Positions 5,978-41,864 of a stretch of DNA of 64,000 bases are shown here, piece by piece. The stretch lies in NCBI GenBank assembly GCA_029262995.1, contig JAJCYH010000012.1, forward strand, positions 1 to 64,000, written 5' to 3'. Origin of the DNA: Saprospiraceae bacterium. Its GTDB lineage: Bacteria > Bacteroidota > Bacteroidia > Chitinophagales > Saprospiraceae. The position numbers and the translations under genes are program-made. How positions within the stretch are numbered: position 1 is the stretch's first letter; each line of letters starts with the position of its first letter. The notes beneath the pieces are model-generated. The model made no database searches. It was given only the letters and a program-made list of their open reading frames with translations, and was not told the DNA's origin.

Positions 5978-6658
5978 TTAATCAAATTTAATGAGATACT
6001 TTCCATTTGAGTAAAACATTAGATTGTCTTTAACCTTCAATGTTTTATAATCAGGAAATATCTTTTGAAAGCTTTGCGCAAAAGCTGTATTTAAAGCCTT
6101 ATCCTCTTTGCTCTCATTCATTCTATTATATAAAAGTAAACCATTTGAAGCCAATTTTGATTTTAGATTTTCAAGAAAATTCAATTGATTAAACTTTTTA
6201 GGCACTTTAGCATTCTGAAATACGTCCATTAGAATCAAATCATATTGATTTTGATCTATTTTGACAAAGGTCTCTGCATCTGTTTGGTAAACACTTATAG
6301 GCGATTCCAAAGTATTCAATGTATATTTATGAGCCAATCTAATAATCTCCGGATCTATTTCAACACAGCTGTAGTCAAACCTTTGTCCGAAGTTTTTCTC
6401 AAGCATTAAAATTACAGAACCAAGACCTAGTCCCAAAAGAAGTATATTTTTAAAAGGAGTCGTTTCCCATTTAATGTTATTAAAACTTTGAAAGAAGTTG
6501 TCATATTTGTCGTCAAACGAATAAATTGCATTTTTCGTTATAAGCTGATGCCTTCCCTTGACTAAAAGAACTTCCAAATATGGGTTATAAGGAGAATTGG
6601 CCTTTTCCAGTGAAATTTCATGAAAGTAGCTAATCATTTTGTTCAGTACGCTTGACAT
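5978..6658 (-). CDS. Spermidine synthase-like methyltransferase-fold protein
   Basis: 226 aa from the ATG at 6658. The nucleotide-binding core shows ILLLGLGLGSVILML (motif I), CVEIDPEIIRLA (acidic residue of motif II) and YDLILMDVFQ (motif IV), the layout of polyamine synthases. The substrate specificity loop differs enough that a true aminopropyltransferase assignment is not safe. Its ATG overlaps the stop of the upstream gene as TAATG, so translation is coupled. Confidence 0.75.
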   Translation of the reverse strand: MSSVLNKMISYFHEISLEKANSPYNPYLEVLLVKGRHQLITKNAIYSFDDKYDNFFQSFNNIKWETTPFKNILLLGLGLGSVILMLEKNFGQRFDYSCVEIDPEIIRLAHKYTLNTLESPISVYQTDAETFVKIDQNQYDLILMDVFQNAKVPKKFNQLNFLENLKSKLASNGLLLYNRMNESKEDKALNTAFAQSFQKIFPDYKTLKVKDNLMFYSNGKYLIKFD

Positions 6659-7866
6659 TATTGGTTTTCCCAAGTTCTGAAGTCACTTGTAGATCTGAAA
6701 ATATGCTCGAGAATGATTTTGTCTTGGGCAGTAAAATCAATTGAACGACGTTTCATAACAATCTCTGCTAATTCTATTGCCTTCTCAAAGTCAAATGTTT
6801 TATACCCAGCTGATCCACCCCAACTATAGGATGGAATATAGTTTCTTGGATAGCCAGAACCAAAAACATTAGCTGAAACACCAACAACTGTCCCGGTATT
6901 AAACATAACATTGATACCACACTTGGAATGATCGCCCATTATAAGACCACAAAACTGTGATCCTGTATTTTCAAACTTCTTAGTGGTGTAATTCCACAAT
7001 TTGACTTCTGCGTAATTGTTTTTAAGATTTGAGGAGTTCGTGCCTGCACCCAGATTACACCATTCACCAATAACGGAATTGCCCAAGTAACCATCATGTG
7101 CTTTATTGGAATATCCTTGGAAGACGGAATTTGATATTTCCCCACCAATTTTGCAATAAGGACCAAAAGAACAATCTTCATAAATTTTTGACCCCATTTT
7201 AACAACACTGGATTCTCCTAAACCAAAAGGTCCTCTTATATGAGAGCCTTCCATAATAGAAGCATTTTTGCCGATGTAGATTGGACCATTTTCAGCATTT
7301 AAGCTGCAATGCTTTAGATCTGCGCCTTCTTCTACAAAAATCCTATATGTACCAAAAGAATTAACTGTAGTTGGCAATGCCGCACTTTTTTTGTCTTTTA
7401 AAATTTTAAAATCGTTAATGATTTCGCTACCATTTAACTTAAAGATATCATCTGGCCTGGAAATCTTACTGAAAGTTTCCTTGGTTTGACCTATATCAAT
7501 ACCTTTTAATTCTTCGATATCTTTATTGTTAACCAAAAGCTGGAATTGACTTTCATCTATTCTAACGGCTACTAGATTATCGCCATCCAAGAGTGCATCA
7601 TTGTAGCCAAGGTTCTTTATTAAGGAAACCAGACGATCATTTGGAAGCCATCTGGAGTTGATAACATAATTGTCTGAAGAAATTTTAATTGGATATTTCT
7701 CAGCTAAATAATCTTTAGTAATGTAACTGCTTTCCCCATTTAGATAATGATCCCACTTTTCACTAATCCTAAACAGACCGACACGTAAATCAGCTACTGG
7801 CCTTGTTAGGCAAAGGGGGAGTAAATCTTTCCAAGATTCGTCATCAAATAGAATAATATTGTTCAT
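6658..7866 (-). CDS. Alternative Bacteroidota GlmU-like UDP-GlcNAc pyrophosphorylase/acetyltransferase
   Basis: 402 aa. The N-terminus (NIILFDDESWKDLLPLCLTR, then PVADLRVG) is the degenerate nucleotidyltransferase lead of the Bacteroidota alternative GlmU family. The C-terminal half (about 190-350) is a left-handed beta-helix of hexapeptide repeats, with NAENGPIYIGKNASIMEGSH and GEWCNLGAGTNSSNLKNNY typical of sugar-1-phosphate acetyltransferases. The likely role is synthesis of UDP-N-acetylglucosamine for peptidoglycan and LPS. It heads the leftward four-gene operon, separated from rpmE2 by a strong terminator. Confidence 0.85.
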   Translation of the reverse strand: MNNIILFDDESWKDLLPLCLTRPVADLRVGLFRISEKWDHYLNGESSYITKDYLAEKYPIKISSDNYVINSRWLPNDRLVSLIKNLGYNDALLDGDNLVAVRIDESQFQLLVNNKDIEELKGIDIGQTKETFSKISRPDDIFKLNGSEIINDFKILKDKKSAALPTTVNSFGTYRIFVEEGADLKHCSLNAENGPIYIGKNASIMEGSHIRGPFGLGESSVVKMGSKIYEDCSFGPYCKIGGEISNSVFQGYSNKAHDGYLGNSVIGEWCNLGAGTNSSNLKNNYAEVKLWNYTTKKFENTGSQFCGLIMGDHSKCGINVMFNTGTVVGVSANVFGSGYPRNYIPSYSWGGSAGYKTFDFEKAIELAEIVMKRRSIDFTAQDKIILEHIFRSTSDFRTWENQ

Positions 7867-7883
7867 CTGATTATAAATTTTAT

Positions 7884-7919
7884 CAAAAAAAAAGCCCCAG
7901 GATTTGGGGCTTTTTTTTT
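7884..7919 (-). terminator. Rho-independent terminator after rpmE2
   Basis: Hairpin 7892-7899 with 7905-7912 (AAGCCCCA stem), flanked by an A run on one side and a T run on the other, so it can act in both directions. It lies directly after the rpmE2 stop and before the GlmU-like gene, isolating the two leftward units. Confidence 0.85.
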
Positions 7920-8205
7920 ATGCTTCTGTTTCTTGCTCTGAATCCTCTGGTTTTTTTGAGAATTTAGCAAATTTCTTTTTGAACTTATCAATTCTTCCAG
8001 CAGTATCAACAAACTTCATTTTACCGGTAAAGAAAGGGTGTGATGCATTAGAAATTTCCACTTTAATCAATGGGTATTCAGTACCATCTTCCCAAACCAC
8101 TGTATCTTTTGTGTTTGCAGCTGATCTTCCTAACCAAGACTCTTCAACAGAGATGTCTTTGAAAACTACTTTTCTATATGTTTCTGGATGAATTCCTTTT
8201 TTCAT
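7918..8205 (-). CDS. rpmE2: 50S ribosomal protein L31 type B
   Basis: 95 aa. L31 sits at the central protuberance and bridges the two ribosomal subunits. The [17 protein letters not shown] start and [20 protein letters not shown] segment are diagnostic, and the absence of the CxxC zinc ligands marks the zinc-independent type B form. The C-terminus carries an acidic extension. A -7-like TATTTTTG on the minus strand (8252-8259) probably drives it. Confidence 0.95.
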
Positions 8206-16140: not shown

Positions 16141-17322
16141 TCAATCATCCACAGAAGAAGTCAAAGTGAGACTAACTTCTTTGATTTCACCGTTTCTTAA
16201 ATATCCAACTTTTACTCGATCATTAGGTTTGTATTTTTCAACGACTTCCATTAAATCAGTACTTGTTTTAATTTCAAAATCATCAATATACTTAATGATA
16301 TCACCAAAGGTAAAATTGCCACTTCTGGTTTTTGCGATGCCTTTTAGTCCTGCTTTTTTGGCTGGTCCATTTGGGTATACATTTTTAATCATAGCTCCTG
16401 ATTCTCTATAGTACCTGTCATCAACCAATGAAATACCCAATAGGGGTCTCTTGACATGACCATAATTAATTAAATCAGGAACAACATTTTTTACTTCATC
16501 AACAGGAATTGAAAAGCCTATTCCTGAATAAGCCCCTGATGGTGAATATATTGCAGTATTCACACCAATTAATTCTCCTGAGGAATTCAAAAGTGGCCCA
16601 CCAGAATTGCCAGGATTTATTGCAGCATCTGTTTGTATTACATCATAGATCTTTCGGTTATTTAGTGCGGTTATTTCCCTTCCAAGGGCACTGATCACAC
16701 CCGTTGTTAATGTTTGGTCAAACCCAAATGGATTACCAATAGCATAAACGGATTGACCCACTTTTAGGTTTTTTGATATTCCGACAGGAAGGCTTTTAAG
16801 TTTTTCCGCTGGAGAGATAATTTTCAATACAGCAAGATCTTTGCTTGGCTCTGCTCCAATTAAAGTCGCTTGGTAACTTGTTTGGTCAGAAAGACTTACA
16901 GTATAACGTTCTCCAGATTCAATCACATGATAGTTTGTAACAATGTGGCCTTGATCATCCCACATAAATCCAGTACCAGAGCCTTTTGGGATTTCCATAA
17001 CATCAAAGGTCCAATATGATTGCTCCAGTCTTGAGGTTGTGATAAATACAACACTTGGTGCTGCATGTTCAAATAGATCGATAACTTTTAACTCATCTGG
17101 GTTTAATCTAGAATCAACGACTTCGTCCTCTTCGTTAATTTGTTTTCCAATTGATCCATCAGAAAATTCATTTTTCACAGCATGATCATTTGCTTTAGAT
17201 ACGTGGTGCACTTTTGGACCATCTTTCTTTAGCAATTTAAATAGTGTATCTGAAAAACCAGTGCCTAGAACGAAACCTGATACAATCAATATTAAGCCTA
17301 GAATAGATTTTGAAATTTTCAT
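16141..17322 (-). CDS. HtrA/DegS-like periplasmic serine protease
   Basis: 393 aa. An N-terminal hydrophobic segment (about residues 6-24) acts as signal peptide or anchor. The chymotrypsin-like triad is visible as NYHVIES (His), KDLAVLKI (Asp) and NPGNSGGPLLN (Ser). One PDZ domain follows (about 290-390: GISLVDDRYYRESGAMIKNV through EKYKPNDRVKVGYLRNGE). A single PDZ resembles DegS more than DegP, but with no RseA homologue in view a general role in envelope protein quality control is the safer call. Confidence 0.9.
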   Translation of the reverse strand: MKISKSILGLILIVSGFVLGTGFSDTLFKLLKKDGPKVHHVSKANDHAVKNEFSDGSIGKQINEEDEVVDSRLNPDELKVIDLFEHAAPSVVFITTSRLEQSYWTFDVMEIPKGSGTGFMWDDQGHIVTNYHVIESGERYTVSLSDQTSYQATLIGAEPSKDLAVLKIISPAEKLKSLPVGISKNLKVGQSVYAIGNPFGFDQTLTTGVISALGREITALNNRKIYDVIQTDAAINPGNSGGPLLNSSGELIGVNTAIYSPSGAYSGIGFSIPVDEVKNVVPDLINYGHVKRPLLGISLVDDRYYRESGAMIKNVYPNGPAKKAGLKGIAKTRSGNFTFGDIIKYIDDFEIKTSTDLMEVVEKYKPNDRVKVGYLRNGEIKEVSLTLTSSVDD

Positions 17323-17336
17323 CTCTTATTTTTTTA

Positions 17337-17366
17337 CAAAAGTAATTAGCAAATTTATCAATTCAA
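17337..17366 (-). promoter_or_regulatory. Promoter of the HtrA-like gene
   Basis: On the minus strand, TTG (17366-17364) is followed after 19 nt by TACTTTTG (17344-17337), 15 bp before the start codon. Both elements and spacing fit the Bacteroidota primary sigma factor consensus. Confidence 0.55.
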
Positions 17367-17448
17367 CGAAATAATTGACGATAACTTATTAATAATAGAC
17401 ATAAAACATATAATAAAAATAAATATGTAACAATGCTATTTTTTTGTC

Positions 17449-17480
17449 TTTGTTAATTGGTGGTTCTCATCTTATCTTTG
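17449..17480 (+). promoter_or_regulatory. Promoter of the structured RNA locus
   Basis: TTTG at 17449-17452, a 20-nt spacer, then TATCTTTG at 17473-17480: the best full match to the TTTG-N19-21-TAnnTTTG consensus in the window. It points into a 200-nt non-coding interval. Confidence 0.75.
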
Positions 17481-17709
17481 AATTGTAATCGAAACAAGGA
17501 CACTGGTGCTAATAAAGTTTAGCATAATTTTAATAAGAGCAAATCACGTTTTCCTTAGGATTTGTTAAAAGAGATTGAGTTTTGTTATATAATTTTTTTT
17601 GAGTTGGTTTTCTAAAAAAATTTTAAACAGTGTCTTTAGTTCGAGCTAAGGATATGTTCATGGGATTATAATTTGCAGATGGTCGCTGGGGAGCGACCAT
17701 TTTTTTTTG
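17481..17709 (+). ncRNA. Candidate structured small RNA, 6S-like
   Basis: About 200-225 nt between a perfect promoter and a strong terminator, with no credible ORF. Two long-range helices are visible: 17481-17490 with 17664-17673 (10 bp, one G-U) and 17496-17505 with 17628-17637 (10 bp, one G-U). They enclose a local hairpin (17508-17512 with 17519-17523), and a 26-nt 3' bulge (17638-17663) faces a 5-nt 5' bulge. A rod with a large internal bubble is the general architecture of 6S RNA, which binds the RNA polymerase holoenzyme; a Bacteroidota 6S family is known. The identification rests on architecture only; it could be a different small RNA. Confidence 0.55.
17679..17709 (+). terminator. Terminator of the structured RNA
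   Basis: Stem ATGGTCGCT (17679-17687) with AGCGACCAT (17692-17700), GGGG loop, followed by a run of nine Ts. It ends the RNA about 95 bp before the next gene. Confidence 0.9.
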
Positions 17710-17803
17710 CCCCTACCCAAACGGCTTTTCAAGTATTTCAGATATCATTACATTTTTCACGATCTATTTTTTTTATATTGTTATTCATTAAATTGGGTAA
17801 CCT

Positions 17804-18655
17804 ATGAAAAGGAGGGATTTTGTTCAATTAGGAATAGCTACGCCCTTTCTTTCTATTCCAAGTTGGTCCAAAGATTCAGGATTAACCAATCACTCAAAAA
17901 ACATAAAGCATTCAATTTGCCAATGGTGTTACAATGATACCCCTTTGGAATTGTTATGCGAAAAAGCAAAGGATCTTGGTATTCAGTCCATAGAGCTATT
18001 GCATGCCAATCAATGGGGAATTGTCCAAAATAAGGGCCTAGAATGTGCAGTTGGGTATGCCAATGATTGGGGACTTACAAAAGGATTTAATGATCCAAAT
18101 AATCATAAGGAATTATTGAAACAATACGTGCTAGCAATAGAGAAGGCTTTTGAAATGGGTATTCCTCAGATTATCTGCTTTTCTGGCAACCGAAATGGAA
18201 TATCTGATGAAGTAGGTTTGGAGAATTGTGCTAAAGGTTTGGATGCTATTGTGGCATTAGGCGAAAAGTATAATGTGATAATTACAATGGAACTGTTAAA
18301 TAGTAAGATTGATCACCCCGACTATCAATGCGATAGTACAAAATGGGGTATAGCTTTGTCGGAAAAGTTGGGATCTACTCACTTCAAATTACTTTATGAC
18401 ATATATCATATGCAAATTATGGAAGGAGACGTCATTCGTACCATAAGTAATAACAAGCATTATATTTCACATTTTCATACCGGTGGTGTTCCAGGAAGAA
18501 ATGAAATAGACGAAACTCAAGAATTAAATTATGCGGCAATTATATCTGCTATTCAATCCTACGGATTTAGTGGCTATGTCGCTCAAGAATTTATCCCGAC
18601 ATGGGAAAACCCTTTTGATGCATTATCAAAGGCAATAAAAATTTGTTCAGTTTAA
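17804..18655 (+). CDS. Secreted TIM-barrel sugar isomerase/epimerase-like protein (hydroxypyruvate isomerase type)
   Basis: 283 aa. The N-terminus MKRRDFVQLGIATPFLS has a twin-arginine pattern (RRDF) and a short hydrophobic stretch, suggesting Tat export. The rest is an AP endonuclease-2/xylose isomerase-like barrel: SICQWCYNDTPLELLCEKAK at the start, GIQSIELL, VIITMELLNSK (metal glutamate), KLLYDIYHMQIMEG, ISHFHTGGVPGR and GYVAQEFIPTW, all matching the hydroxypyruvate isomerase group. The true substrate is uncertain. It opens a four-gene operon with a GMC oxidoreductase and a gluconate dehydrogenase-type small subunit, hinting at oxidation and isomerisation of a sugar acid or cyclitol. Confidence 0.83.
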   Translation: MKRRDFVQLGIATPFLSIPSWSKDSGLTNHSKNIKHSICQWCYNDTPLELLCEKAKDLGIQSIELLHANQWGIVQNKGLECAVGYANDWGLTKGFNDPNNHKELLKQYVLAIEKAFEMGIPQIICFSGNRNGISDEVGLENCAKGLDAIVALGEKYNVIITMELLNSKIDHPDYQCDSTKWGIALSEKLGSTHFKLLYDIYHMQIMEGDVIRTISNNKHYISHFHTGGVPGRNEIDETQELNYAAIISAIQSYGFSGYVAQEFIPTWENPFDALSKAIKICSV

Positions 18656-35441: not shown

Positions 35442-35533
35442 GGTGAGGTGGGTGAGTGGCTGAAACCACCGGTTTGCTAAACCGGCGTACTTGGAAACTG
35501 GTACCGGGGGTTCGAATCCCCCTCTCACCGCCA
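35442..35533 (+). tRNA. tRNA-Ser (anticodon GCT)
   Basis: 92 nt including encoded CCA. Acceptor stem GGTGAGG with TCTCACC (one G-U), discriminator G, T arm GGGGGTTCGAATCCCCC, anticodon stem CCGGTTT..AAACCGG around GCT, and the long variable arm of class II tRNAs. It reads AGC/AGU codons. Confidence 0.97.
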
Positions 35534-35553
35534 CAGTATTAAAAATATATTTT

Positions 35554-36105
<552 letters not shown>

Positions 36106-41465: not shown

Positions 41466-41473
41466 TAACTTTG
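41466..41473 (+). promoter_or_regulatory. -7 promoter element for rnpB
   Basis: TAACTTTG directly before the RNase P RNA 5' end. A -33 element is not clear. Confidence 0.5.
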
Positions 41474-41474
41474 T

Positions 41475-41853
41475 ATTGTTGCGCTCTATCGCTTCTTTAG
41501 GGAAGAGGAAAGTCCGGACAACGCAGAGCACCGCACCATCTAATAAATGGGCTGTAGGAAGCTGCAGACAGAAAGTGTCTCAGAAAATAACCGCCCTAAA
41601 GTGTAGCGTAAGCATCTGCTTTAGGGTAAGGGTGAAAATGTGAGGTAAGAGCTCACATCTGTAATTGGCAACTTTTATAGAGGACAAACCTTGCGGGTTG
41701 AAATGCCATGTAAACCCTGATTGATTTGACTTTTAGTCAAAACGATAAGGCTGCTCGTTTTATGAAATGTAAATTTCATTAGGGAGGGTAGGCAGAGTAG
41801 ATAAATGATAGAGGATCAACTTGTTGATTACAGAATCCGGCTTATAGCAACAT
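41475..41853 (+). ncRNA. rnpB: RNase P RNA, bacterial type A
   Basis: The catalytic RNA of RNase P, which matures tRNA 5' ends. The 5' conserved region GAGGAAAGTCCGGAC (41504-41518) pairs in P4 with the 3' conserved region ACAGAATCCGGCTTATAG (41830-41847). The P1 stem is TGTTGC (41477-41482) with GCAACA (41847-41852). Internal segments with TGCGGGTTGAAATGCCA and GGGAGGGTAGGCAGA are consistent with the family. A terminator follows. Confidence 0.95.
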
Positions 41854-41864
41854 TTTTTAAAAAA

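Follow-up and report, generated by a model that had tools for sequence, protein, structure and literature searches.

Positions 17449-17709 of the window (the whole stretch of DNA that was analysed, 64,000 nucleotides from a Saprospiraceae bacterium) hold a stand-alone small RNA (sRNA) gene belonging to an apparently undescribed RNA family of the Saprospiraceae. Comparison with relatives shows a layout of promoter, 5' domain closed by a helix (P1), near-invariant motif of 26 nt and terminator. We hypothesize with moderate confidence that the predicted transcript (17485-17708) is a trans-acting sRNA of a new, Saprospiraceae-wide family, in which the motif would serve as an antisense seed and pair over start codons. 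The parts of the locus are as follows.

17406-17434, plus strand: AT-rich block upstream of the promoter, kept in the ten-locus same-genus alignment; a possible regulator or UP-type site
17449-17480, plus strand: promoter of the Bacteroidota type, read from the sequence; TTTG at 17449-17452, a spacer of 20 and TATCTTTG at 17473-17480
17485-17708, plus strand: predicted sRNA transcript of about 224 nt, with its start from promoter spacing and its end from the terminator, backed by fold and conservation
17496-17505, plus strand: 5' arm of helix P1, AAGGACACTG; two-sided changes at two positions
17506-17525, plus strand: hairpin P2, inside P1; 50 of 50 cells paired over five counted pairs
17540-17564, plus strand: hairpin P3; hairpins with changing stems stand at the same place in the folds of relatives
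17571-17586, plus strand: linear block A, GAGATTGAGTTTTGTT, almost the same throughout the ten sequences of the genus; a similar block occurs in L042 and L035
17601-17612, plus strand: linear block B, GAGTTGGTTTTC, likewise almost the same throughout the ten sequences of the genus
17628-17637, plus strand: 3' arm of helix P1, CAGTGTCTTT, pairing with 17496-17505 in 10 pairs, one of them G-U
17650-17675, plus strand: 26-nt motif, the proposed antisense seed and the sole part conserved outside the genus
17679-17708, plus strand: intrinsic terminator, read from the sequence; stem 17679-17700, T-run 17700-17708

Promoter, 5' domain and terminator within the genus

A DNA search of 60 relatives recovered homologs in nine of 13 same-genus genomes, three of them spanning nearly the whole query; it found none in G001, G004, G008 and G012, the last three of which are less than 80% complete. 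The ten same-genus sequences (the window's own and the nine homologs) share the promoter region, P1, the hairpins and the terminator, and their 3' end, consisting of the 26-nt motif and the terminator, is almost unchanged. An earlier note on this DNA had described a promoter, two long-range helices, a small internal hairpin and a strong terminator, with letters and coordinates that proved correct against the sequence. The promoter region is indeed kept, TTTGTCTTTG being present in all ten loci, with a weaker -7 box in L005 and L009; the start near 17485 was placed by the promoter-to-start spacing in FopS genes. The terminator is likewise present, its stem and loop identical in 10 of 10 sequences. 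No ORF of at least 50 codons lies inside 17449-17709 (one mechanical ORF begins at 17707), in agreement with the note's remark that no ORF fills the interval. The fold of the interval has an energy of -68.4 kcal/mol; the corresponding value for 200 dinucleotide shuffles is -48.8 (sd 4.4), which gives z -4.45, and none of the shuffles folds as low. Other RNA genes in the window are those of RNase P RNA (41473-41860) and two tRNAs (Ser and Pro; 35442-35629).

One of the two long helices, P1, covaries across the ten genomes: 94 of 100 cells are standard pairs, with two-sided changes from C-G to T-A in L009 and from G-C to A-T in L003 and L010, and a swapped-arm control reaches 94 in eight of 1000 draws. 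The small internal hairpin, P2, covaries as well: it is paired throughout, with seven different stems among the ten sequences (swapped arms, 0 of 1000); for both, the arms were chosen by eye from folds, a bias towards pairing which the swap control answers in part. The other long helix, between 17481-17490 (AATTGTAATC) and 17664-17673 (GATTATAATT; 10 pairs, one G-U), is not supported. The -7 box ends at 17480, and with a start near 17485 four of the ten upstream bases would be untranscribed; L003, L006 and L009 each lack one of the other six pairs, and covariation cannot support the helix because the motif side never changes. Pairing of the RNA's 5' end with the motif was discarded on the pair lost in three of ten sequences.

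The 26-nt motif and its arrays in the Saprospiraceae

In other genera the DNA search repeatedly aligned the motif alone, in a few cases with a little of the terminator. When two mismatches at most are allowed, an even sample of the order has the 19-base core in 33 of its 37 Saprospiraceae genomes and in 8 of the 161 others, and those eight are weak, each a single two-mismatch match; the reversed pattern, used as a control, matches in 3 of 198 genomes. Among named genomes the exact 20-mer of the motif is found in at least 118 stretches, and among the 80 matches listed for it one is titled only 'bacterium' and the rest are Bacteroidota, mostly Saprospiraceae.

We collected 271 motif modules in 135 non-redundant loci and profiled 253 of them (the other 18 have incomplete flanks or come from L002-L010). 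The loci hold one module (40 loci), two (63), three (25), four (6) or six (1). Since the loci from the named genomes were found by the exact 20-mer, one module in each carries it by construction; further modules were allowed four mismatches and so are less preselected. Over the 253 modules, core positions 3-11 are conserved at 98-100% and the flanks decay within a few bases. A stable hairpin (z < -2) follows 90% of these modules against 6% of 202 control windows, and the last module of a locus has a T-run of at least six within 70 nt in 99 of 118 cases, an earlier module in 34 of 135. The promoter-like words TTTTCACAA, ATATTTGTA and TTGTCTTTG stand upstream of the arrays on the forward strand of 42, 35 and 28 of about 126 loci, and on the reverse strand of 1, 1 and 0. 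These word counts are clear; a promoter pattern over 119 loci is weak (19 forward, 10 reverse). No Rfam family, at its cut-offs, matched in nine array loci.

In L042 and L035, which belong to other genera, the GATTGAGTTTT block of the window's RNA sits between two array modules, and the form of the RNA found in the window may represent a reduced array. Five viral contigs carry the exact 20-mer too, and in two of these it is followed by a hairpin (L153:6654-6710 and L149:4033-4052). As read from their translations, L153 appears to be a tailed phage, its motif lying directly after an apparent tail tube gene (6236-6643), and L149 a phage replication region. Within the window itself a look-alike of the motif with 4 mismatches in 20 lies directly before a strong terminator (7859-7920), such matches occurring at control level.

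Candidate targets and the OmpA-like gene

If the motif acts as a seed, it would pair over start codons whose target form centers on AATCCCATGAAC, and such pairing would block ribosome entry and lower translation; the hairpins would display the seed and protect it, and a locus with several seeds would supply a higher dose. Help from the genome's single RRM protein, as from RbpB with FopS in Bacteroides, is conceivable by analogy only. As expected of a trans-acting antisense sRNA, the locus has its own promoter and terminator. The best target candidate in the genus is a small secreted OmpA-like protein.

The first ATG was taken as the gene start throughout, except in G005. Across 593 genes of the own genome the seed does not favor starts in general, scoring -8.93 there and -9.43 at internal ATGs, and near-perfect complementary sites elsewhere in the own genome (at most three mismatches in 18) number nine further against eight for the reversed control. 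The motif is predicted to be partly open only (mean 0.44 unpaired). For the two best sites among the 593 own start regions, at -23.5 and -20.0, 4 and 15 of 120 shuffles that keep the core do as well, as do 3 and 5 of 120 full shuffles. The second of them is the start of the OmpA-like gene, which was found in 14 of 14 genus genomes; its product is small and secreted, with a Pfam OmpA match below the cut-off (E 5e-5), and its homologs in the genus share 24-45% identity with the own copy.

At the start of this gene, the own genome and 8 of the 13 others in the genus read CCCATG, and 9 of those 13 read CCATG, counts that include a start in G005 moved by hand to fit a pattern match (otherwise 7 and 8 of 13); among own genes, CCCATG occurs at 1 of 593 starts (the OmpA-like gene itself) and CCATG at 13 of 593. 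TATAATCC, which is complementary to the other half of the motif, lies just upstream of the start in 3 of 13 (G003, G005 and G009), and within 40 nt in 3 of 614 own genes. A pattern for such bipartite targets matched in 75 of 150 family genomes, oftener than its reversed control; of these matches the one in G005 alone was examined. CCATG is present in nine of ten genomes with the sRNA and in one of four in which none was found (Fisher p 0.04, relatedness ignored), the exceptions being G011, with the sRNA and no CCATG, and G012 (53% complete), in which CCATG is present and the sRNA was not found. In a profile search for the OmpA-like gene, 13 of 90 genomes of the family gave matches. Among homologs from other genera, four of nine with a usable start have CCATG (G030, G446, G015 and G029), and G608, G585 and three more do not, against a background of 21 of 519 genes near arrays; this count leaves out L299, which is of the same genus, L302 and L311, whose sequences do not include the start, and L310, an unrelated long ORF. 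CCATG alone proves little, because guaA also has it in two fetched loci.

Duplex energies were also summed. For the 13 genus starts, with the own start left out, none of 300 full shuffles and 13 of 300 core-kept ones equal the sum; for six homologs from other genera (L307-L309 also left out), 0 of 300 full and 22 of 300 core-kept shuffles do as well; and for the four genus genomes without the sRNA the numbers are 24 and 136 of 300. Against shuffles that keep the TTCATGG core, the signal for this predicted target is modest (13-22 of 300), and the OmpA-like homologs are not independent of each other.

Summed over genes that neighbor the motif, duplex energies gave no match in four of five control groups, and these were rejected as targets: core-kept shuffles were as good or better in 196 of 200 cases for subtilisin-like, 167 for cytochrome-c-peroxidase-like, 169 for DegP-like and 121 for TIM-barrel genes. 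In one group of genera, a gene for an Ig-like secreted protein (beginning MNV) lies upstream of the array in L048, L055, L093 and L127 with a start complementary to the motif; 7 of 200 core-kept shuffles are as good, with 6 of 14 starts available. Among genes near arrays (437 in all), 12 reach -16 kcal/mol; core-kept shuffles give 6.3 on average and 14 at most, and the excess is suggestive only.

Alternative readings and related RNAs

CsrB and RsmZ are RNAs that titrate a protein by means of a short GGA motif repeated between hairpins. An RNA of this kind, in which the motif would sequester an RNA-binding protein such as the RRM protein and pair with no mRNA, is a doubtful though credible account of the family. 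It would suit a long, nearly invariant motif present in up to six copies between hairpins, the single RRM_1 protein of the own genome, and a seed with no general start-region preference; here too one motif is repeated between hairpins in one RNA (1-6 per locus). Against it, the window's genus has the motif only once, and the motif has an anti-start-codon core to which the OmpA-like gene keeps a complementary start; moreover, at 20-26 nt the motif is unlike the short GGA. An antisense seed remains the reading that we prefer.

The cited accounts describe FopS and GibS of Bacteroides thetaiotaomicron (RF04319) as sRNAs that base-pair with the start-codon regions of their targets, which they repress (PMC11697453, PMC7366714), a mode of action that we propose here. 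The window's RNA resembles them in its intergenic location, promoter type, intrinsic terminator and the shared UUCAUGG-AUUA, CAT (the complement of the start codon) lying within UUCAUGGGAUUA in our motif, where the FopS consensus has UUCAUGGUAUUA; both also have many paralogs (there per genome, here per family) and copies in phages. That it is a diverged true member of the FopS/GibS family is nevertheless quite improbable. The FopS model matches it weakly (23.8 bits, E 0.24, against a cut-off of 56) and finds nothing in the six Saprospiraceae genomes shown. Whereas the R1 seed of FopS lies in the single-stranded 5' end, the related motif here lies about 165 nt from the inferred 5' end, near the 3' end and behind a structured 5' domain, and other genera have tandem modules within one locus (the own genome has a single copy). 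Nor were SusC-like genes, the targets of FopS, matched by the seed: in the 28 loci evaluated (30 were fetched) their start regions average -8.8 kcal/mol, compared with -9.8 in 61 other genes, a test in which only 5 of 31 matches stood above the SusC cut-off and some first-ATG starts are doubtful. Membership was rejected on the score, the layout and the SusC-like genes. Weak FopS-like matches in two other Bacteroidota families (L167, 43.9 bits, in G153; L168, 36.4 bits, in G149) are a point in favor of membership.

Very improbable, too, is that the interval is an untranslated leader or an element acting as DNA (a repeat or protein-binding site) rather than as an RNA in its own right. The sRNA is on the same strand as the gene at 17804, a TIM-barrel gene, and the motif forms direct tandem copies elsewhere; yet the terminator is unchanged in the genus while the downstream gene varies, and the hairpins are retained despite changing stems. 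The sRNA is not simply the leader of the 17804 gene, because a homolog of that gene follows in just five of nine same-genus loci, while a homolog of the divergent DegP/HtrA-like protease gene beside it (16141-17322) is upstream in nine of nine (in L003 as the second gene). The earlier note had named transcription into the 17804 gene, as an ordinary leader, as the outcome that would speak against its proposal, and synteny reveals no constant downstream gene; a leader of this gene was therefore dismissed. No neighbor gene is common to the 148 loci compared, which counts against a leader or DNA element and removes a single shared neighbor as a cis target. The note's wording "new small RNA" accords with these results: the RNA has its own promoter, covarying structure, an invariant terminator and no constant downstream gene.

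Its other suggestion, 6S RNA (RF01685 for 6S-Flavo), a rod-shaped RNA that binds RNA polymerase by imitating an open promoter, is extremely improbable, for although the length of about 224 nt (both are stand-alone RNAs of some 200 nt), the closing helix, the large internal loop and the lack of another 6S found in the own genome would suit it, the conserved core is a linear 26-nt motif repeated in related genera. The proposed Rfam covariance searches (6S and 6S-Flavo) produced no match: no 6S family appears among Rfam matches up to E = 10 in 17300-17850 or at gathering level in the window, and 6S-Flavo, a model of limited reach that matches 3 of 119 genomes of the class, all under the cut-off, has no match anywhere in the own genome. 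With that reach checked, 6S RNA was rejected. The 6S rod has a closing stem and a central bubble; here the closing helix P1 covaries, but inside it lie two hairpins and two linear blocks. We know of no 6S RNA with a repeated conserved motif.

MicA and RybB of enterobacteria are sRNAs that repress OmpA-type surface proteins at the start codon. The proposed repression of an OmpA-type protein at its start would be alike, with the sRNA gene here standing beside a DegP-like protease gene in the genus; unlike MicA and RybB, the window's RNA has an unrelated sequence, belongs to another phylum and has a predicted target only, and an Hfq link is not part of the picture. A bolder version of our reading, tentative and rather unlikely as a whole, is that a family-wide multi-seed sRNA, which phages carry as well, silences surface-protein mRNAs at their start codons, and in the genus would form an envelope circuit with the adjacent DegP-like protease and the OmpA-like target. 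Such a circuit would be an independent parallel to the sigma-E/MicA/RybB logic of enterobacteria.

Among the papers listed on small RNAs of Saprospiraceae or Haliscomenobacter and on Bacteroidetes RNA motifs, none deals with an RNA of this kind. Weinberg et al. 2010 (PMC2864571) list Bacteroidetes motifs including 6S-Flavo, and none of those deposited in Rfam matches the window's RNA. The mechanism that we propose belongs to a known type; the family, its tandem-seed layout and its 5' domain are absent from the literature and Rfam searched. To our knowledge, what has been worked out about sRNA regulation in Bacteroidota comes mainly from gut Bacteroides. If our reading is true, an environmentally abundant family would gain a conserved sRNA with a partly FopS-like seed and a multi-seed layout, which would allow tests of whether start-codon-antisense sRNAs are a principle of the whole phylum, and of why the same seed occurs in phages.
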